NCBI GenBank assembly: GCA_016872835.1
Contig: VGYX01000001.1
Span: 124,001 to 188,000, forward strand
Reading direction: 5' to 3'
From: Planctomycetota bacterium
GTDB lineage: Bacteria > Planctomycetota > Phycisphaerae > Phycisphaerales > SM1A02
DNA length: 64,000 nucleotides
Position numbers and translations under genes: made by a program. This document shows positions 50,410 to 60,099 of the stretch, piece after piece (within the stretch, counting starts at the first letter, position 1; each line of letters opens with the position of its first letter). A model generated the notes under the pieces. That model was not told where the DNA came from. It saw only the letters and a program-made list of their open reading frames with translations, and did not search any database.

Positions 50410-51296
50410 GCGGCAAGCGACCCATGCCAAGATGTGCCCGGTGCGGCTACATCCTGGCCGGGAGTCCGCTGCCCATGCGCTGCCCGGAATGCGGGCATCG
50501 TCGCGCCCTGCGTCAGCGATGGATCGAGAACGAACTGCATCGTGAGGGGCCTCGTGTCGTGCTGCCAGTGATGATGCGCTGTCTGGCCGCAGCGATCCTG
50601 CTGGTGTTTCCGTGGCTCCTTCGAGCGGTCCTGAGCGAATCGTTCATGGACGCATGCGGCTTGTCCTTCCGACCGAGCGCATTCTGGGTGGATGTTGCGC
50701 TGGGTCCGGCGGCGTTCGTCGCCTCGATACTGCTGACCCGACCGATCGGTGCGCAGGGCGCAGATGGATTTGGGCTGACGGCCTCATCACGGCTGCGACC
50801 ATGGATTTCGGTGCTGAACGTGCTGTGGTTGCCGTATTCGCTGTTGATGCTGATGGCGATCTTCGCCTCTCCAGCACCGCCCAATCCAACTGCGCCCTCG
50901 CCACAGGATGAGTGGATCGTGGCTGCCGGCGTGCTGGTGGTTCCGGCGCAGATCGCGTGGGTGCTGTCGCTGTTCCACATGGGCAACATCGCGGACTATC
51001 TGCGCGACGCCTTCCTGCGCCGGATCGCGACAACCTGGTGCTGGTTGTGGGGTGTCTTTGTCGTCGTTGCACTGCCTGTGGTGGCGACCAAGGCCTCACG
51101 CTCGCAGGCGCCGGATGCATGGAGCCAGGCCATGCAGATCGTGATCGCGATGTCCAATCTTGGGTTGGCGTGGGGATTCGTGATGGCCTCGCTGGTGTGG
51201 TGGAGCACCACCCACGCACTCACGCTCGCCTATGAGGAGCTGGAGCGCGAGGATCGTCGGGCGCGTCGGGAGCAGGAGCGGTATCCAACGCCCTGA
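50406..51296 (+). CDS. Zinc-ribbon membrane protein, unknown
   Basis: The 296-residue protein begins with a zinc ribbon (Cys10-x2-Cys13 and Cys26-x2-Cys29; CARCGYILAG...CPECG). About six transmembrane segments and a basic Glu/Arg-rich C-terminal tail follow. This ribbon-plus-membrane layout is common in Phycisphaerae-type genomes but has no assigned function. It is translationally coupled to purQ by a 4-nt overlap. The next gene has its own promoter box overlapping the intergenic gap. Confidence 0.7.
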   Translation: MSGKRPMPRCARCGYILAGSPLPMRCPECGHRRALRQRWIENELHREGPRVVLPVMMRCLAAAILLVFPWLLRAVLSESFMDACGLSFRPSAFWVDVALGPAAFVASILLTRPIGAQGADGFGLTASSRLRPWISVLNVLWLPYSLLMLMAIFASPAPPNPTAPSPQDEWIVAAGVLVVPAQIAWVLSLFHMGNIADYLRDAFLRRIATTWCWLWGVFVVVALPVVATKASRSQAPDAWSQAMQIVIAMSNLGLAWGFVMASLVWWSTTHALTLAYEELEREDRRARREQERYPTP

Positions 51297-51309
51297 CCAT
51301 CCGAACGAC

Positions 51310-51315
51310 TATCCT
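51310..51315 (+). promoter_or_regulatory. -10 box TATCCT of the Gfo/Idh gene
   Basis: TATCCT ends 6 nt before a GTG start, the same box and spacing as purL. Confidence 0.5.
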
Positions 51316-51321
51316 TGCGGC

Positions 51322-52356
51322 GTGAAAACCGCCTCTGGAACCCTTCGTTATGGCGTGATCGGCACGGGCCGGATGGGTCGCCACCATGTCCGCCTTGGCA
51401 CCCAGATTCAGGGTGTGGAACTCGTGGGGGTGGTGGACCGTGACGCCGACCGCCGCGCGGAGATGGTCGAGAAGTACGGCGGCGCTGGACATGCCGAGGT
51501 GGAGGCGCTGATCGAGGCCGGCGTGGACGTGGTGACGATCGCCACGCCGACGATCCACCATCGTGCGGCCGCCGAGAAGCTGCTGGCGCGTGGTGTGCAC
51601 TGCCTGATCGAGAAGCCGCTTGCGCCCAGCGTGGAGGAGGCTCGCGCCATCGCCGACGCCGCCGCACGAAGCGGCGCGTTGCTGCAGGTAGGCCATGTGG
51701 TTCGGTACGACCCCGTCATGGTGGCCATTCGAAAGCTCGGGCTTGGCATGCCGCGCTTCGTGGAGGTCGATCGCATCAGTCCCATGACCTTCCGGAGCGT
51801 GGATGTGGGTGTGGTGCTGGACATGATGATCCACGACATTGACGTGCTGCTGATGCTCATGGAACGGGAGCCGGAGCGCGTGGATGCCAGTGCGGTGAAC
51901 GTGCTTGGTGACAGCGAGGACGTTTGCAACGCACGGCTGACTTTCCCGCCGGGACCAGACGGACACCGATGCGTCGCGAACGTGACGGCAAGCCGGTTGG
52001 CCATGAAGACCGAACGCAAGATGCGCCTGATCTCTCCCGAGGCCTACGTGAGCGCCGACTTCCAGGAGCGCAAGGGCAACGTGGTCCGGCGCACCGTGAA
52101 CGACGCGCGCATGGCGCAGATCCGAGCCGACCTGAAGGCCGGCAAGGATCTGAGCAGCATGAACTGGATGGAGCTCGTTTCGCTGGAGCCGCTGGATGTG
52201 GGCGCCGGCGAGCCGCTTCGTCTGCAGATGGAGGACTTCGTCGACGCGATCCGCACCGGTCGCAAGCCGTTCGTGGACGCGGAGGCTGGTTTCGCCGCCG
52301 TCCGGACTGCGGAGCGCATCGTGGCCGCCGCGAAGGCCCTGAACGCTGGCGCGTGA
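51322..52356 (+). CDS. Gfo/Idh/MocA-family oxidoreductase
   Basis: This NAD(P)-dependent sugar or polyol oxidoreductase has 344 residues. The Rossmann motif RYGVIGTGRMGRHH is at the N-terminus, EKPL at 97-100 carries the typical catalytic Lys, and the MMIHDIDVLLML helix provides the conserved Asp/His. Members of this shape include UDP-N-acetylglucosamine 3-dehydrogenase-like enzymes, but the substrate cannot be told from sequence alone. The GTG start at 51322 is supported by the TATCCT box. The endonuclease IV fusion gene starts 1 nt after the stop. Confidence 0.88.
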   Translation: MKTASGTLRYGVIGTGRMGRHHVRLGTQIQGVELVGVVDRDADRRAEMVEKYGGAGHAEVEALIEAGVDVVTIATPTIHHRAAAEKLLARGVHCLIEKPLAPSVEEARAIADAAARSGALLQVGHVVRYDPVMVAIRKLGLGMPRFVEVDRISPMTFRSVDVGVVLDMMIHDIDVLLMLMEREPERVDASAVNVLGDSEDVCNARLTFPPGPDGHRCVANVTASRLAMKTERKMRLISPEAYVSADFQERKGNVVRRTVNDARMAQIRADLKAGKDLSSMNWMELVSLEPLDVGAGEPLRLQMEDFVDAIRTGRKPFVDAEAGFAAVRTAERIVAAAKALNAGA

Positions 52357-52357
52357 T

Positions 52358-54322
52358 ATGCCGCGAATTGGAAGCCATTGCAGTGCCGCAGGCGGACCTG
52401 CCCATGCCGTGCACGAGGCGATCGCGCTTGGACTGGATTGTGTGCAGGTGTTCACAGCCAACCAGCGACAGTGGAATCCGAAGAGCCTTGGTGCGGCGGA
52501 GATCCACGCGTGGTTCGAGGCGCTGAAGATTGCGGGTTGGTCGAATCCGGAAGATCACCGCATCGTCAGCCACAACAGCTATCTCGTGAATCTGGCGAAT
52601 CCGGACGCCACGGCTCGGAATCGAAGCCTTGCGTTGCAACGGCGTGAACTGGAGCGGTGCGAGCAGCTTGGCATCCGTCTGTGCGTGATGCATCCGGGGG
52701 CCCATCTTGGCGCAGCCCGAAAGCCAGGTGATCCGAACGCTCTGGGTGCTCAACCGACCTCCGACGAGCAGGAGGGCCTGCGAAGGATCGCGCGAAGCAT
52801 GGACACCCTGCACGCGGAGTTGCGTGGTATCAAGGTGATCACCTGTCTCGAGAACACCGTCGGCTCGGGCACGAATCTTGGCTATCGATTCAAGGACCTT
52901 GCGCGGATCCGCGACATGGTCCGCGAGCCCGAGCGCATCGCCTTCTGCATCGACACCTGTCACGCCGTCGCGGCAGGCCATCACATGGACACGCCTGCGT
53001 CCGCCAAGGCCACGGTGCATGACATGATCGCCGCACTTGGCGAGCATTCCATCAAGGTCTTCCACCTGAACGATTCGACCGGGGACTGTGGAAGCCGCAA
53101 GGATCGGCACGCGCACATCGGGGCGGGAACCTGTGGATCCAGCGCCTTTGCCGCGATCCTGCGCCGCCGCGCATGGGCTCGCACACCCATGATTCTGGAG
53201 ACTCCGAAGGAAGGCTCATGCAAGGGTCAGCCGTGGGATGTGGTGAACGCCGCGAAGCTTCGTGCAATCGCCCGCCCGGCGAAACGAGCCGCCCGATCGC
53301 TTGCGGGGATCGTGCTTGTGCTCGGCATGCTGCTGGTGCTGCCTGCGTGCAAGACGCGAACCCTTCAGGAGATTCGCGGCGAGACACCATCGCCGACGAT
53401 CACCGAGACGCTGCAGGCCGGCAAGCCCTCGGTGGAGGAAGCGGTGACGATCGAGAAGGCTCGCGCCAAGATCGATCGTGGCGACTACGAGGCCGCGCTG
53501 TCCATGTTCCAGGATGTGCTTCGCGAGAATCCCAAGCTTCCAGACGCGTGGGTCGGTGTGGGTGACGCGCATGCATCGCTGAAGGAGTGGACCGAGGCCG
53601 AGACCGCCTACGCGAACGCGACGACGCTGGACAACGGCAATTTCGAAGCGCACTTTGGCCGAGGCAAGGCGCAGCAGGTGCTGAACCGTCTGATTGACGC
53701 GATCCGCAGCTATCACCGAGCGTTGCTGATCCGCCCCGAGGATTTCGACGCCAACCTGAACATGGCGACGGCCTATCTGCAGCTGGATCAGCCGCAGAGT
53801 TCCATCACCTATGCCGAGAAGGCCGTGAAACTGAAGCCCGACTCCGGTACGGCGCGCATCAATCTTGGCGTGGCGTATGAGCGTGCAGGTCGAGCGGCGG
53901 ATGCGGTGGCGCAGTACGAGACCGCCGCGGAATTGATGGAGCCGACGCCTCAATTGCTGATCAATCTGTTGAACGCCTACGCGCAATCCAAGCGATATCG
54001 CGAGGCCGTGAACGCAGCCGGTCTGCTTGTGCGCATCGCGCCCACCGCCAACAGCTGGGAGCGTCTTGGTTGGGCCTGCTTTCGCCAAGGCGACTTCCCG
54101 CGGAGTCTTGAGAGCTATCGCGAGTCGGTACGAGTGGACCCGCAACATTGGCCCGGCTGGAACGGTGTGGGTGTGAACATGCTGAACAGTTGGCTGCAGG
54201 GGGGCCGCAAGGACTCCGCGCAGGCCGAGCAGGCCACGGCCGCATTCCGCAAGTCGCTGCAGATCAACCCTGAACAGGTGAAGGTGCAGAAGCTGCTGCA
54301 GACCTACAAGGTGGGTCCGTGA
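52358..54322 (+). CDS. Endonuclease IV fused in frame to a membrane-anchored TPR module
   Basis: One 654-codon frame covers two modules. Residues 1-305 are a complete endonuclease IV (Nfo), which cuts at abasic sites. All nine metal ligands are visible: His72, His112, Glu165, Asp199, His202, His236, Asp249, His251 and Glu281. A basic stretch (RPAKRAAR) and a hydrophobic segment (about 315-330) ending LVLPAC then form a signal-like or lipobox region. Residues about 365-650 are six or seven TPR-like repeats. Either the protein is a true fusion with a cytoplasmic nuclease and periplasmic TPR domain, or an internal GTG (53240 or 53243) starts a separate TPR lipoprotein. It sits between the oxidoreductase gene and trpD, with a 4-nt overlap at its end. 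Confidence 0.85.
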   Translation: MPRIGSHCSAAGGPAHAVHEAIALGLDCVQVFTANQRQWNPKSLGAAEIHAWFEALKIAGWSNPEDHRIVSHNSYLVNLANPDATARNRSLALQRRELERCEQLGIRLCVMHPGAHLGAARKPGDPNALGAQPTSDEQEGLRRIARSMDTLHAELRGIKVITCLENTVGSGTNLGYRFKDLARIRDMVREPERIAFCIDTCHAVAAGHHMDTPASAKATVHDMIAALGEHSIKVFHLNDSTGDCGSRKDRHAHIGAGTCGSSAFAAILRRRAWARTPMILETPKEGSCKGQPWDVVNAAKLRAIARPAKRAARSLAGIVLVLGMLLVLPACKTRTLQEIRGETPSPTITETLQAGKPSVEEAVTIEKARAKIDRGDYEAALSMFQDVLRENPKLPDAWVGVGDAHASLKEWTEAETAYANATTLDNGNFEAHFGRGKAQQVLNRLIDAIRSYHRALLIRPEDFDANLNMATAYLQLDQPQSSITYAEKAVKLKPDSGTARINLGVAYERAGRAADAVAQYETAAELMEPTPQLLINLLNAYAQSKRYREAVNAAGLLVRIAPTANSWERLGWACFRQGDFPRSLESYRESVRVDPQHWPGWNGVGVNMLNSWLQGGRKDSAQAEQATAAFRKSLQINPEQVKVQKLLQTYKVGP

Positions 54323-55365
54323 GTTCCCCCGACGGGATCATGCCGGGGCCATTCAGGGCCTCGCTGGACGTGCTGGAGGGGGCTGGAACGCTCTCCATGG
54401 AACAGGCGGAAGCCTCCATGGGGTGTGTCATGGAGGGCACGGTTCCCGACGAGGCACTCGCGCGGTGGCTTGGGGCCCTTGCCCTGCGCGTGCCAGAGTC
54501 GCGTGAATTGATTGGATTCGTGAAGGCCTTCCAGGGCCGCATGATCCGGATCCCAACCACGATTCCGCCCGAGCGGATCCTGGACACCTGCGGCACCGGC
54601 GGCGCACCGAAAGTGTTCAACGCAAGCACGCTCGCCGGACTTGTTGCAGCGGCAGGTGGCGCGCCCTGCGCCAAGCATGGCAATCGCTCCCGCACCGGAT
54701 TTGGAAGCGCCGAGACCATCGCGGCTATGGGTATTTCGATCGAGTCGACGCCGGAGCGACAGGCCCATGACCTGGAGAAGATTGGATTCTGCTTCTGCAT
54801 GGCGCCCCGACATCACCCAGGAGCGGCACATGCCGCCCCGATCCGGAAGGCTCTCGGAGGGCCGACCATCTTCAACGCGATCGGCCCACTGACGAATCCG
54901 GCAGGAGCGCTGCGCCAGGTGTTGGGTGTGTGGGACGAGCGTCTCATGCAGCCCGTCGCCCAGACACTTGCCGCCATGGGGGCATCGCACGCGATGGTGC
55001 TGCACAGTCGCGATGGCCTGGACGAGGCGAGTGTCTGTGCGCCGACTCGATACATCCGGGTGGATCGGGGATCGTTGGTGGAGGAGTCGGAGTTCGAGCC
55101 GTCCATGTTCGGAATCCCGAAGCACACCTTGGCTCCGGAACCTGCGAAGACGCTGGCAGATGCCGTGTCCATCGCGACGGCGCTGCTGGATGGCCGTGAT
55201 GTTGGCGCCCGACGCGACATGCTGGTGCTGAATGCGGCGATCGCGTTGGTCGTTTCTGGTCATCGGCTCTCGTGGCGCGATGCCGCGGCCCATGCGCGCG
55301 ACCTGCTGGACAGCCGGCGGGTGCTGGATCTGGTCAAGCGGATGACGAACGGGACAAAGAGCTGA
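54319..55365 (+). CDS. trpD: Anthranilate phosphoribosyltransferase
   Basis: TrpD joins anthranilate to PRPP in tryptophan synthesis. The 348-residue protein has the PRPP loop DTCGTGG (Cys91-Gly95 region), the KHGNRS motif at 119-124, RHHPGAAHAAPIRK and NAIGPLTNPAG. It starts with a GTG that overlaps the preceding stop (GTGA), so its translation depends on the endonuclease/TPR frame. trpC lies alone 31 kb away, so the pathway genes are scattered. Confidence 0.95.
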   Translation: MSSPDGIMPGPFRASLDVLEGAGTLSMEQAEASMGCVMEGTVPDEALARWLGALALRVPESRELIGFVKAFQGRMIRIPTTIPPERILDTCGTGGAPKVFNASTLAGLVAAAGGAPCAKHGNRSRTGFGSAETIAAMGISIESTPERQAHDLEKIGFCFCMAPRHHPGAAHAAPIRKALGGPTIFNAIGPLTNPAGALRQVLGVWDERLMQPVAQTLAAMGASHAMVLHSRDGLDEASVCAPTRYIRVDRGSLVEESEFEPSMFGIPKHTLAPEPAKTLADAVSIATALLDGRDVGARRDMLVLNAAIALVVSGHRLSWRDAAAHARDLLDSRRVLDLVKRMTNGTKS

Positions 55366-55416
55366 AAAACGGCATCAATTGTCAGTGATGGTTGGTCGGG
55401 GGCCCACCCTGTGGGC

Positions 55417-57900
55417 ATGTGGACCAGAGCGATTGGTTTGGGATGCGGATGCTGCGTATGGCTGGGGGTGCTGGCTGGATTGCAGCTTTCGGGGACACCG
55501 ATCCTTGATGCGATCGTCGACTGGGTCTTGATCGCGGTACTGGTGACGCCGATCGTGACCTGGGTTCCACGCCGCCGCACGGGCGCACAACGTCTCATCC
55601 TGTTGCTTTCACTGGGGCTCCTCGGATTCGCGCGTGCCGGTGTGCACATGTCGCGTGTGGATCCCCTGACGCTGCGCCATGGTCACGATGCACCTGAGAC
55701 GCTGGTTCGTGTTCGAGGTCTGCTTCGGGAACGACTGGTGCCGGTTGAAACCGGAGATCGCGATGTGATGGATCCGTGGATCCGTCCCCCATCCGACGTG
55801 CCGTGGAGGTCCGAACTGCAGATCCTGCAGGTGCATGACGGTGTGGGCTGGCACGATGGTCACGGCATCGTCGTGCTGTTGTTGGCGACCACGCCACAGG
55901 ATGTCGCCGTTGGCACCGAGCTTGAGGTTCTGGGTTGGATGCAGCCGATCGGTCGCGGCGTTCCTGGGAAGCCTTGCCGTGACACGCGACTGACTCGATG
56001 TGATGGCGTGAACGGCGTCCTTCAAAGCGATCTTGATCCGCTGGTGGTGCGTCAACCGGGTTGGTGGACGGCATCCCGGAACTCCCTGCACCGATGGCTT
56101 GACTCCAATCTCCTCGAATGTCTCGGGGCAGGATGCCGGGAAAGGCATCGGGCGCTCCTGATCGCCATGACCACTGGACGGACACTGCCGGGCCTTCATG
56201 CCTTCCGTGATCTCTTTCACCAGGCTGGTTTGAGTCACTTTCTGGCGATCAGTGGATTCAACGTGGCGATCCTGCTGATCACGGCACGTGTGCTGATGGA
56301 GGTGGTTGGGCTGCCGTGGTGGATGCGGGGCTGGTGCCTGGCGCTTCTTGCGATCATCTTCGTCATGGCGGTCGCGCCCGGGGTCTCGGTGGCGCGTGCA
56401 GGATTGTCTGGTGTATGTGCTGGAATTGCGCTTGGACTTCGCCGTGGCTGGAAACCAGAGTCGGTCCTTGGAACCTGCATGGTCCTCATGCTGCTGTGGG
56501 ATCCATGTCTGGCCGTGGATCTTGGGTTCCTGTTGAGCTTCGGGGCCGTGTTGGGTCTTGTCCGTGGAACAGGACCCATCCAGGAGCTGGTTCCGGACGT
56601 TGGAGGTCTCACTGTGCCACGATGGGTTCGCCGACTTGTGACATCCGTGTGGACCGCGATCGCTGCAGGACTGGGCGCCTGGCTGATGTCGATTCCGATC
56701 ACGCTCCATGCCGTTGGTGTCACGCATCCATGGTGTGCGTTCACAAGCACCCTGCTTGGTCCGTGTGCCGCCTTGATCACCGTGCTGGCATCGATGGGCG
56801 CCGTGTTGGGCTGGATTCCAGGCAGCGATTTCGTGTTTCAGCCTCCTCTTGAACTCCTTGTCGAGTGCATGCACTGGGGAGTCGCGACGAGTGCTGGAAT
56901 TCAGGGGTCGAGGTGGGACACCGGTTGTGTGTCGGGATGGTGGTGTCTTGTGGGCTTCTTGTCGCTGGCATGGTGGTGGAATCGACCCGCTCGATCGGTG
57001 CCAAGGGGGTGGGTGATTTCCGCCATGCTGGGGTGGCTCATGGTGGCACTCCTGCTGTTTCGGAATTCAGAAGCTGTGGCTGAACCAGCAGCGGATTCGC
57101 TTCGATGGACCTCCCTGTCTCTGGGAGGTGGCAACGCGCATGTGATTCAGCGTGGCCACATGGCCACCTTGATCGATGCGGGTTCCAGAACCTCTCGATC
57201 GACCGGATCCACAATCCTGGTGCCCGCCCTCCGATCGTTGGGCATTCGCGTGATCGACCGAATCGTGGTTCGACGCGCATCCATCGATCGATTCTCCGCC
57301 CTCCCAGAGGTGATCGAGCAATTTCCCGTTCGGTCGGTCTTGCTGTCGAGTGACTGGTTCCGACCATGGGGTTCGGACACACCTCAGTCCATGATGCTGA
57401 AGCGACTGGCCTTGTCGGAGATCCCCATCCATGATCTTGGTCTGATCGATGGCTGGACCGATGAAGCATGGACATGGTCGTGCGAACGGCGTCGCTTGTC
57501 ATCTCGTGTTGATGTCGGTCCACCCGTGCTGTCGCTTCGTGCGGATCGTGGGTGTCACTCGCCAACACTGGTCTTCATGTGGGGTTGTGACGAGTCCACG
57601 ATCCGGAATGCGCTTCAACGGCGGGCGATCCAGGATGTCGCCGCACTTGAATGGCCGCCCACGACGATGCTGGATCGGGTTGGTCAAGAAGCGTTGCCGG
57701 CCATCGATCCTGGTCACGTCATCCAGGTCGTGGGAGACGAGACACCGGCCCAATCACTGTTCCGACGACATGCAGGTTGGCGTCCGTGGGGTCTGCTGAA
57801 GATGGATGGGGCGCTGCAGTTCCGCCTCAACGACCCTGAGAGTTCGGCTGGTCTGTTCCGTTGGACGTGCTCAGGGTGGGTGCAGATCCGCCGTCATTGA
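55417..57900 (+). CDS. comEC: ComEC/Rec2-family DNA uptake channel protein
   Basis: ComEC moves single-stranded DNA across the inner membrane in natural transformation. The 827-residue protein has N-terminal membrane helices, an OB-like region, the competence domain with GLSHFLAISGFNVAIL near residue 270 (usually SGLHV), many transmembrane helices to about 560, and a C-terminal metallo-beta-lactamase-like domain. That domain seems degenerate: the expected His/Asp metal cluster is replaced by VVRRASIDRFSALPEV. ATG 55417 or GTG 55411 may start it. Its last 74 nt overlap the 3' end of the convergent gene. Confidence 0.88.
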   Translation: MWTRAIGLGCGCCVWLGVLAGLQLSGTPILDAIVDWVLIAVLVTPIVTWVPRRRTGAQRLILLLSLGLLGFARAGVHMSRVDPLTLRHGHDAPETLVRVRGLLRERLVPVETGDRDVMDPWIRPPSDVPWRSELQILQVHDGVGWHDGHGIVVLLLATTPQDVAVGTELEVLGWMQPIGRGVPGKPCRDTRLTRCDGVNGVLQSDLDPLVVRQPGWWTASRNSLHRWLDSNLLECLGAGCRERHRALLIAMTTGRTLPGLHAFRDLFHQAGLSHFLAISGFNVAILLITARVLMEVVGLPWWMRGWCLALLAIIFVMAVAPGVSVARAGLSGVCAGIALGLRRGWKPESVLGTCMVLMLLWDPCLAVDLGFLLSFGAVLGLVRGTGPIQELVPDVGGLTVPRWVRRLVTSVWTAIAAGLGAWLMSIPITLHAVGVTHPWCAFTSTLLGPCAALITVLASMGAVLGWIPGSDFVFQPPLELLVECMHWGVATSAGIQGSRWDTGCVSGWWCLVGFLSLAWWWNRPARSVPRGWVISAMLGWLMVALLLFRNSEAVAEPAADSLRWTSLSLGGGNAHVIQRGHMATLIDAGSRTSRSTGSTILVPALRSLGIRVIDRIVVRRASIDRFSALPEVIEQFPVRSVLLSSDWFRPWGSDTPQSMMLKRLALSEIPIHDLGLIDGWTDEAWTWSCERRRLSSRVDVGPPVLSLRADRGCHSPTLVFMWGCDESTIRNALQRRAIQDVAALEWPPTTMLDRVGQEALPAIDPGHVIQVVGDETPAQSLFRRHAGWRPWGLLKMDGALQFRLNDPESSAGLFRWTCSGWVQIRRH

Positions 57901-59011
57901 CCGGTGTGAGGAACGGTCGATTCATGCGCAAGGCGGCCCCGAAGGCGCCCTGAAGGGAATCCTCGATCCGGACGACCATTCGTCCAGTGTGGATCGTGGC
58001 GTGCAAGGGCATGCTCTCGGATGTCCTGGAGATCGGGAATCGAAGGATCTCGCGCTCACCATCCTGGATCACGACAACACACGCCGCCTTGCCGGAGAGT
58101 CCAAGTGGAACACCCAGGTCCGCGTCCACGATCCATTCGCCCGGTGGGAGAGATGCCTCGAAGACACCAGGACCATGCAGGTCGATCGATGCCAGATCAA
58201 GCGCATGCGATCCCGATGCAACGCGGCCTCGTGCTGGGGCGAGTCGTGGCGTGTCGGCCAGATCAGCGCTCTTCCATGGTTGTGACGCGAGCGCAATCAC
58301 GGCGGTGGGTGCGCTTCGTATCGCGATGACCTGTCCCCAATCCAGAGGCAGTCGTGACGGTGCTCCAGCGAGATGACACCCTTCAAGAACCACCTGCTCA
58401 CCAAGGCGCTTCCAATGATCCGCGTCGATCACGCTGCCATCACGAAGCCAGAATCGCCAGCCCTTCGCCGGCTCCGCCCGCGATGCAAGCCACACCGCCA
58501 CCACGCGGTCCAGATCGTGATCGATGACCTCGGTGGATGGCGCTCCCTCGGTGGTGATCGTTGCAAGACGGACCCCATGCGTGACATCGATGGACTGAAT
58601 GAACCCCTCCGCACGATCACCGTTGACGAAATGCACCTCATCCCGCGAGATCGGGCGCGTGGTGTCGGCCGAAAGGGGTCCGATCCGTGCCACGCGTTCC
58701 AGATCCACCCGCACCGCACCAAGCTTCGGATTCCGCCACCACAATTCCTGTCCGTTGGATTCGAATCCACCGACCAGCACCTGGCCGTCCTGAAGGATCA
58801 TCGCGCTGACGCCCCCCGGCGCCTGAAGGATGGAGGATCCGATCCAGATCCCTCGCCAATCGGGCCAGACGCTCTCCGAAAGTTCCGAAAGACCGGACTC
58901 CTTGACCTCGACGACCGAGCCATCACGTTGAATGGCGGTCGCGCCCTGCGCAAGAGCCGGTGCGCCGATGCCAAGCAGCGCGCATGCGACCGGGATCGTT
59001 CGTGCGCGCAT
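57827..59011 (-). CDS. Exported protein with NPCBM-like C-terminal domain, unknown
   Basis: The 394-residue protein has a signal peptide (RTIPVACALLGIGAPALA). Its body consists of beta-rich segments with repeated DGSV and DGQVLVGGF phrases (dosage of small beta units like LRDGSVIDAD). The C-terminal region from about 300 resembles an NPCBM/NEW2 carbohydrate-binding domain (DLHGPGVFEASLPPGEWIVDADLG; VVVIQDGEREILRF). It starts by a 1-nt TGATG overlap with the squalene-cyclase-like gene. Its 3' end overlaps comEC by 74 nt on the other strand. Function is unknown, with a surface or periplasmic location likely. Confidence 0.7.
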   Translation of the reverse strand: MRARTIPVACALLGIGAPALAQGATAIQRDGSVVEVKESGLSELSESVWPDWRGIWIGSSILQAPGGVSAMILQDGQVLVGGFESNGQELWWRNPKLGAVRVDLERVARIGPLSADTTRPISRDEVHFVNGDRAEGFIQSIDVTHGVRLATITTEGAPSTEVIDHDLDRVVAVWLASRAEPAKGWRFWLRDGSVIDADHWKRLGEQVVLEGCHLAGAPSRLPLDWGQVIAIRSAPTAVIALASQPWKSADLADTPRLAPARGRVASGSHALDLASIDLHGPGVFEASLPPGEWIVDADLGVPLGLSGKAACVVVIQDGEREILRFPISRTSESMPLHATIHTGRMVVRIEDSLQGAFGAALRMNRPFLTPVNDGGSAPTLSTSNGTDQPNSQGR

Positions 59012-60099
59012 CACTTCTGGAAGATCGGGAGGTAGCGGTTCGGCATCTGAAGCACGATCAGTCCCATGGCAGTGCTGTAGGCGGAGCCCCACTGGTAGTC
59101 GATCCATCCACCTTCGTCGCTCTGACGCTGCACCAGCTCGTCACGGATGCGCGGCCACCAGTTGCTCCAGCGATCACCACCCGCGAGATACATGCACTGC
59201 ACCGCGTAGTAGTGACCATAGAAGTAATGTGCCTCGGACATCGGCCCACCCCCGTCGGGAGCCGCCATCGCCAGCAGGTACTGCAGTCCGCGATCGATCG
59301 AATCATCGCTGTAGACGCCCGCGTAGAAAAGACTGGCCACGCCAGCCGCCGTGCGGGGCCAGGCGCTTGTACCCATGCTGCTCATGTAGCGGAACCCACC
59401 ATCCCCGTTCTGGCATCCTCGTACATAGGCGATGGCACGGTCGATCGTCTCGCGTGGCACCTTGATGCCGGCGTTGCGCGCGCTACGAAGACCCATCACT
59501 TCGCAGATCGTCACGCTCACATCGGCGTCATAGGGAACCGGGTTGTAGCGCCAGCCACCCTCCTCGTTCTGGCTGTTCACGATCAGGTCGACCGCCCGGA
59601 CAAGCGCGTCGCGAACCCGACCGTCCTCCGGGCTCATGCCGAAGATCTCACCAAGGAAGAGTGTCGCGAAACCATGGCCATACATCGGACCATGGCTGTT
59701 CTCGGTCGCCAACAGACCGGTTTCGGTGGCGTGATTCAGCACGAACTCAAGGGACTTGCGGACCACCTCACCGTAGGGTCCGCGGCCGGGCAGATTGCCG
59801 TCCGCCATGAAGGCGAGCCCGCACAGCGCCGTGATTCCGACATGCTTGGCGAAACGGCCGCGACCAAATGATCCATCATCATTCTGAAGGCTCGCAAGGA
59901 AGCGAAGGCCGCGCTGCACGGCCTCGATCGACTCGGCATTCATCTCGGTGGCGGCAGGGGCGTTCTGCGCGCTCGCGCCCCGATCCATGGGACGCTGCAC
60001 CTCGACCTCGCCGGCGAGAATGTTCTCTGGCGTGACGGGTGATGGGTCGACCGCCTGTCGCGCAAGCAAGGCCGCAAGCAGGCACGCATGCACCATCAT
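59011..60099 (-). CDS. Exported prenyltransferase/squalene-cyclase-repeat protein
   Basis: The 362-residue protein has a short N-terminal signal-like segment and an alpha/alpha-barrel of QW-type repeats: LQNDDGSFG, SQNEEGGWRY, CQNGDGGFRY and RQSDEGGW. Triterpene cyclases share these repeats, but the catalytic DxDD motif is not evident, so cyclase activity is doubtful. Such stand-alone repeat proteins are common in planctomycetes beside large coiled-coil proteins. The start overlaps the stop of the upstream coiled-coil gene by 4 nt, and its stop overlaps the next start by 1 nt. Confidence 0.8.
   Translation of the reverse strand: MMVHACLLAALLARQAVDPSPVTPENILAGEVEVQRPMDRGASAQNAPAATEMNAESIEAVQRGLRFLASLQNDDGSFGRGRFAKHVGITALCGLAFMADGNLPGRGPYGEVVRKSLEFVLNHATETGLLATENSHGPMYGHGFATLFLGEIFGMSPEDGRVRDALVRAVDLIVNSQNEEGGWRYNPVPYDADVSVTICEVMGLRSARNAGIKVPRETIDRAIAYVRGCQNGDGGFRYMSSMGTSAWPRTAAGVASLFYAGVYSDDSIDRGLQYLLAMAAPDGGGPMSEAHYFYGHYYAVQCMYLAGGDRWSNWWPRIRDELVQRQSDEGGWIDYQWGSAYSTAMGLIVLQMPNRYLPIFQK

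Follow-up and report, generated by a model that had tools for sequence, protein, structure and literature searches.

Can a single bacterial gene specify both a cytoplasmic DNA-repair enzyme and an envelope lipoprotein and, if so, does its product stay in one piece? The question is raised by a gene in the window (the whole 64,000-nucleotide stretch of planctomycete DNA analysed here) in which endonuclease IV (nfo) continues in frame into a basic-hydrophobic segment and a TPR domain. We favour, at a probability of about 0.62, the reading that the gene encodes a polyprotein: one polypeptide would be made and then matured into two proteins by signal peptidase II, cutting before Cys331.

The fused frame and its two parts

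The frame (52358..54322, plus strand) opens with an ATG at 52358 and ends with a TGA at 54320-54322, its 654 codons containing no internal stop and specifying, in order, endonuclease IV, a signal with lipobox and TPR repeats (654 aa). The initial annotation had read nuclease, basic-hydrophobic segment and TPR region as one uninterrupted frame, and this is what 52358-54322 contains; the frame is kept in 49 of 49 readable loci from six genera. Its nuclease domain, residues 1-306 (52358..53275, plus strand), matches TIGR00587 (nfo) over residues 4-285 at 234.8 bits, above the curated cut-off of 129.65, and the Pfam model AP_endonuc_2 at 164.4 bits, and by Foldseek against solved structures this half is nearest to E. 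coli Nfo structures (4k1g, TMt 0.92). The residues that we take to be the nine metal ligands of E. coli Nfo correspond here to H72, H112, E165, D199, H202, H236, D249, H251 and E281, which together with the TIGR00587 score bears out the earlier claim of a complete endonuclease IV. All nine are also present in the 48 aligned fused rows, except that L094, with a match beginning only at residue 73, shows a gap at H72; one of the 67 split rows (L148) has Arg in place of H251. The fused protein holds the whole fold, the nine ligands and the C-terminal helix of endonuclease IV (Nfo, TIGR00587), but differs from it in lacking a stop at the end of the nuclease and running on into an export signal. Judged by score and ligands, the nuclease part is a true member of the endonuclease IV family, with a predicted AP-endonuclease activity.

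The linker between the nuclease and the TPR domain, RPAKRAARSLAGIVLVLGMLLVLPAC, begins with the n-region-like basic segment RPAKRAAR (residues 307-314; 53276..53299, plus strand), the length of which differs among relatives. There follow the hydrophobic core of the internal signal (residues 315-330; 53300..53347, plus strand), with a hydropathy of 3.42 over 11 residues, and the lipobox L328-P329-A330-C331 (53339..53350, plus strand), in which Cys331 (53348-53350) is the expected site of lipidation and cleavage. Basic residues, a hydrophobic core and a small residue followed by Cys, all expected of a bacterial lipoprotein, are found in the fused frame, but the signal is not at the N-terminus of the chain, its Cys being residue 331 of a continuous frame. 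A search of the window for other internal lipobox-like sites (six frames, stop to stop, at least 150 aa, one filter) returned only the known one.

The expected mature TPR lipoprotein comprises residues 331-654 (53348..54319, plus strand), with matches to Pfam TPR models at approximately residues 363-600. An AF2 model built from 19 aligned sequences had a mean pLDDT of 86.3 with both domains confident and a helix at residues 309-325; pLDDT was below 50 for residues 328-351 and mostly above 90 from residue 361 onward. The pTM of 0.50 we read as two halves without a fixed mutual arrangement in the model. Past residue 358 the model has eight helix pairs and one final single helix, so that the TPR domain proposed in the initial annotation stands, but its count of six or seven repeats does not. 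With the whole model as query, the top Foldseek matches were endonuclease IV and, for the TPR half, generic or consensus TPR superhelices. The PilW, Tgl and PrsT families, which count as lipoproteins partly by their names, likewise have a TPR superhelix after a lipobox, but the signal of the fused protein is internal rather than N-terminal. The TPR part belongs to none of the three, because its scores lie far below the family cut-offs (TIGR02521, 65.8 against 154; NF033762, 62 against 225; TIGR02917, 83.6 against 312.2), and among the equivalog models listed it passed no NCBIfam equivalog cut-off.

Gene neighbourhood

Upstream of the fused gene lies a gene for a Gfo/Idh/MocA-type oxidoreductase (51232..52356, plus strand; Pfam), with one base from its stop to the nfo ATG. 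Downstream, the listed GTG start of a TrpD-like gene (54319..55365, plus strand; Pfam Glycos_transf_3) overlaps the TGA of the fused gene, and a ComEC-like competence protein (55411-57900; Pfam Competence, 99.3 bits) is encoded two genes downstream. The gene order purL-like, purQ-like, oxidoreductase, nfo-TPR, TrpD-like, comEC-like, in which the purL-like and purQ-like labels are our assumption, recurs in the eight loci of the window's genus (g1) with long enough flanks (L054, L055, L057-L059 and L061-L063); only in g1 loci was a ComEC-like gene seen near the fused gene. L060 (RFYV01000065.1), a record titled Betaproteobacteria bacterium, also contains a g1-like fused gene flanked by these neighbours and is probably mislabelled or from a mixed bin. 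Elsewhere in the window two minus-strand frames overlap (57827-59107 and 59011-60099), one having no Pfam match at E <= 0.001 and one having a prenyltransferase / squalene-hopene cyclase-like domain.

Fused and split loci among relatives

A search of 181 genomes of the family gave a match at E <= 1e-40 in 166. We read 127 loci, the window included (126 from the family and one order-level outgroup), these being part of the matches among those listed; a duplicate, L112 (of L023), was taken out before counting. Both parts lay on one stretch and strand in 119 of the 127, and one part was missing in eight, three of which represent a single broken gene of genome G001 (L021 and L167 of these are an identical stretch). 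Nuclease and TPR form one frame with no stop between them in 49 of the 119 loci (48 genomes) and two genes in the other 70. The fused loci fall into genera g1 (12), g6 (3), g17 (4), g41 (17), g60 (12) and g62 (1) and are every readable case there; no genus was mixed, each being either fused or split in its readable loci. Two genes cut by contig ends, in G001 (g1) and G075 (g41), are open beyond the lipobox, to residues 393 and 400, respectively. Apparent stops in some g1 and g6 fused matches are the genes' own 3' stops, because the frame extends 888-900 bases past the TPR start. Three of the 16 g1 genomes gave no match at E <= 1e-40, and the family search likewise found no nfo in them. One g60 genome, G188, has two fused copies (L103 and L106) on different contigs, reflecting either a duplicate gene or a mixed bin.

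The split pair of other Phycisphaerales genera consists of the same proteins in the same order and on the same strand, with the lipobox retained, and differs from the fused gene in that a stop and a spacer separate the two parts and the lipoprotein usually has its own ATG. The initial annotation had proposed comparing orthologues for fused and split frames, and held that close relatives all showing two genes with a clear second start would speak against the fusion: the frame is fused throughout the readable g1 loci, and the split arrangement with its second start is found in other genera of the same family. The split state of those genera is most likely ancestral.

Origin and maintenance of the fusion

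A quick tree of 115 rows (48 fused and 67 split; four of the 119 loci were too short) was built with the junction excluded. The fused/split label requires four changes on it, at least three of them forced by starred branches, although the exact number of events is unsure, since the tree program flagged meetings of long branches, namely g18 with g60 and the two g2 rows. A single fused clade was rejected (AU p 1.7e-74 under a simple LG+G4 model, on the quick tree), from which we read that the fused state arose on more than one occasion, or arose and was afterwards lost (g18, g2).

Measured from the conserved Asn in the last helix of the nuclease to the Cys of the lipobox, the linkers of the 48 fused rows come in 19 lengths; on the tree these call for a minimum of 24 changes, every one by whole codons. 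In g60 (L100-L110 and L123) the last nuclease helix passes directly into the signal core, the distance from Asn to Cys being a constant 23 codons in all 12 loci. Of the 70 split loci, 19 have the TPR gene in frame 0 relative to nfo, 19 in frame 1 and 32 in frame 2, and in the split genus g56 the frames differ even among close relatives (1, 5 and 2 loci). Being in frame belongs to the definition of a fused locus, and so the force of the comparison lies in the six fused genera containing no out-of-frame locus. As read from these linkers, the fusion has since been maintained in frame through many insertions and deletions.

A neutral origin has to be weighed here, in which the fusion is a by-product of genome compaction and offers no functional advantage over two proteins. 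PMC6461901, on freshwater Planctomycetes, names ZH-13MAY13-plancto70, the genome of the g17 fused locus L067, where it treats Phycisphaerae of a family that it calls Nemodlikiaceae (CL500-3), and gives for this family a median genome size of 2.6 Mb, a median intergenic spacer of 43.5 nt and a coding density of 92.9%. We infer that the window and plancto70 belong to the Nemodlikiaceae lineage; the window's own genome measures 2.39 Mb in 46 contigs. Spacers as short as this median in a related lineage favour a neutral by-product, as do the window genes adjoining the fused gene, which overlap or abut it.

The TPR protein is moreover retained where nfo was not found. The family search for nfo, which detected it in 10 of 14 control genomes, did not find it in any of 22 genomes tested from g5, g8, g44, g57, g58 and g59, and the TPR protein was present in 18 of 18 searched genomes of these same genera. 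Read by eye, 17 of these 18 stand-alone loci have a start (ATG in 15, GTG in 2) together with a hydrophobic stretch and the Cys of a lipobox; the eighteenth, L183, has a match starting near the Cys and was unreadable. Since the stand-alone copies have their own start and lipobox, lipidation would be the normal fate of the TPR protein, which is likely a lipoprotein in its own right. Its presence where nfo was not found also implies that it does not depend on nfo and that joint work is not required. Against a purely neutral history, the frame has survived at least 24 changes of linker length, and the tree demands several fusions, or a fusion with later splits. We put this neutral account a little short of even odds; it bears on the reason for the fusion and is compatible with maturation of a polyprotein, and the odds of the two overlap.

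Proposed maturation at the internal lipobox

The polyprotein reading turns on the junction. A lipobox-type Cys follows the hydrophobic core in 49 of 49 fused and in all 68 of the split loci examined, counts made with a script that picked the best Cys per locus and is therefore biased towards finding one. The residue at -1 of this Cys in the 49 fused loci is Gly in 40, Ala in eight and Ser in one, and in one fused locus, L052, position -3 is Asp, contrary to a stricter -3 rule. Because the script selects the best-fitting Cys, a 19-row alignment of fused proteins served as an independent check of the lipobox: C331 is the sole invariant residue from A298 to P357.

We envisage the following course. 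Adjacent nfo and lipoprotein genes would have lost the stop codon and intergenic spacer between them in a compact genome. Ribosomes would initiate at 52358 and meet no stop before 54320; the endonuclease IV would fold in the cytoplasm as the N-terminal part of the chain, in effect a giant n-region of a lipoprotein signal, and the basic-hydrophobic segment, on emerging, would be taken into the Sec route, serving as an internal signal of the lipoprotein type with its N-terminal side inside and its C-terminal side outside. Lgt would lipidate Cys331 and LspA (signal peptidase II) would then cut before it. One product, residues 1-330, would be endonuclease IV carrying a hydrophobic tail, which would keep it on the cytoplasmic side of the inner membrane unless further trimming set it free, and the other a lipid-anchored TPR protein in the envelope. 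If the gene is translated as one chain, lipidation and cleavage of this kind are probable on the sequence pattern. The fuller picture, in which the cut by signal peptidase II yields tail-anchored endonuclease IV and TPR lipoprotein at a fixed 1:1 ratio and this state has been gained repeatedly, or gained and lost, in freshwater Phycisphaerales, we favour slightly.

The window's own genome encodes LspA. Lgt was not found there (the genome being 98.9% complete) by a search that found it in 10 of 15 other g1 genomes and from whose control list B. subtilis, which has Lgt, was missing; the lack of a match in the window's genome likely reflects an assembly gap or a search miss.

The main reading of the initial annotation was a nuclease tethered to the membrane with a periplasmic TPR domain, that is, an uncut bitopic inner-membrane protein that would tie DNA repair to the membrane. 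Its single chain agrees with the frame being continuous in all 49 readable loci of the six genera, the basic residues ahead of the hydrophobic helix would give the right topology for a cytoplasmic endonuclease IV and periplasmic TPR domain, and AF2 models both domains well whilst leaving their mutual orientation unfixed (pTM 0.50). A plain anchor, however, needs no fixed Cys and small residue, yet these are kept whilst the linker drifts, and the TPR protein is lipoprotein-like wherever it is a separate gene in the loci read. Since the linker has no invariant residue other than the lipobox Cys, a cut at C331 is more probable than a lasting tether; the single chain of that proposal is thus retained, but an uncut protein appears unlikely.

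One chain or an internal start

Cleavage presupposes that both parts are translated together. The alternative raised for this locus was initiation within the 3' end of nfo, giving a normal prolipoprotein alongside the read-through fusion, at one of two in-frame GTGs (53240..53245, plus strand; at 53240 and 53243). Both codons are indeed there, but only one of 11 other g1 loci, that of G012, shares both, and G013 has one; in G010 and G004, which are just as near, the two positions hold Arg-Glu codons. The GTGs, even with their recurrence in G012, thus make a doubtful start.

We searched more generally for a start codon followed by K or R at -32 to -13 from the Cys, with the expectation calculated from codon use in the nuclease, in the 49 fused loci and in 68 of the 70 split loci (two g16 loci with their parts more than 500 bases apart were omitted). 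These comparisons are descriptive, the rows being related and hence not independent trials: an ATG was found in 58 of 68 split loci against 10.5 expected and in 9 of 49 fused loci against 8.6 expected, and with GTG and TTG admitted the figures were 60 of 68 against 29.9 and 22 of 49 against 24.2, respectively. When the distal limit was moved to -25, -40 or -45, the fused loci had 7, 25 and 25 ATGs against 4.1, 13.4 and 16.0 expected, and at -25, -32, -40 and -45 the split loci had 53, 58, 65 and 65 of 68 against 6.8 to 15.4 expected. The fused excess comes from g17 and g60 and is small elsewhere: at the same four limits the counts were 7, 9, 14 (of 37 loci) and 14 against 2.8, 6.2, 9.8 and 11.8 without g60, and 3, 5, 21 and 21 against 3.8, 8.0, 12.5 and 14.9 without g17. 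In g17 an ATG stands at -25 or -19 in four of four loci, and in g60 11 of 12 loci have one at -40, within the nuclease motif and immediately ahead of the ligand Glu; two of the 12 g60 loci also have a TTG at -32 after an AAGGAGG stretch. In these two genera an internal start is possible, although the fused loci overall do not support one. The codons for the nuclease PKEG motif in g60 often give an AAGGAGG- or AAGGAAGG-like stretch.

Shine-Dalgarno-like matches of at least four bases precede 21% of 43 fused candidates in g1, g6, g41 and g62 and 17% of 12 in g17, which resembles the rate for start-type codons in frame within nfo (19% of 1615) and not that for split ATGs (45% of 83). In g60 the rate is 38% of 13 candidates, two of them TTGs, with such a match ahead of three of the 11 ATGs at -40 and of both TTGs at -32. 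No ATG, GTG or TTG followed by K or R occurs at -40 to -13 in 10 of 49 fused loci, against one of 68 split loci. Since fused ATGs at -32 to -13 are at chance level, unlike those of split loci, and the fused candidates have no one conserved place, internal initiation is weakly supported, and we consider it improbable. Ribosomes starting at nfo would meet no stop before the TPR end, so that the fused chain would in any case be made, and the one-chain translation that the initial annotation had offered as its other outcome is, with an open frame in all readable loci of the six genera, very probably what takes place.

A stop codon removed by assembly or sequencing error, a doubt raised by draft genomes and by named relatives that are for the most part metagenome assemblies (several of them carrying a Phycisphaerales or Planctomycetota label), is ruled out for practical purposes, because the translations of 18 relatives in named assemblies from different projects align across the junction without a stop and the identical open frame recurs in 49 loci of 48 genomes.

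Relation to known polyproteins and implications

The nearest parallel to a polyprotein of this kind is FbcH of Bradyrhizobium japonicum, in which cytochrome b and cytochrome c1 are made as one polyprotein that is cut at an internal signal peptide, a type I site. The locus described here likewise has one gene, one precursor and a frame free of stops, in which an export signal lies internally, between parts that are separate proteins elsewhere, the cleavage in our case being predicted. FbcH differs in joining two subunits of a membrane complex, whereas in our locus the part ahead of the site is a soluble DNA-repair enzyme and the site itself is of type II (a lipobox). We found no description of such a nuclease-lipoprotein fusion in the open-licence full-text literature, and excerpts of PMC10924467 and PMC12344293 describe no such case.

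If the polyprotein reading is correct, the locus would be a natural example of one bacterial chain giving rise, via signal peptidase II, to a cytoplasmic enzyme and a lipidated envelope protein, and signal peptidase II and Lgt would have to accept a substrate with a folded cytoplasmic domain of 300 residues. Genes of this type are at risk of misannotation in both directions, as a nuclease with an odd tail or as an N-terminally truncated lipoprotein. For the organism, an abasic-site nuclease would be placed at the membrane, and for its family the locus would offer a concrete path by which genome compaction turns gene neighbours into polyproteins, with the split relatives as controls.
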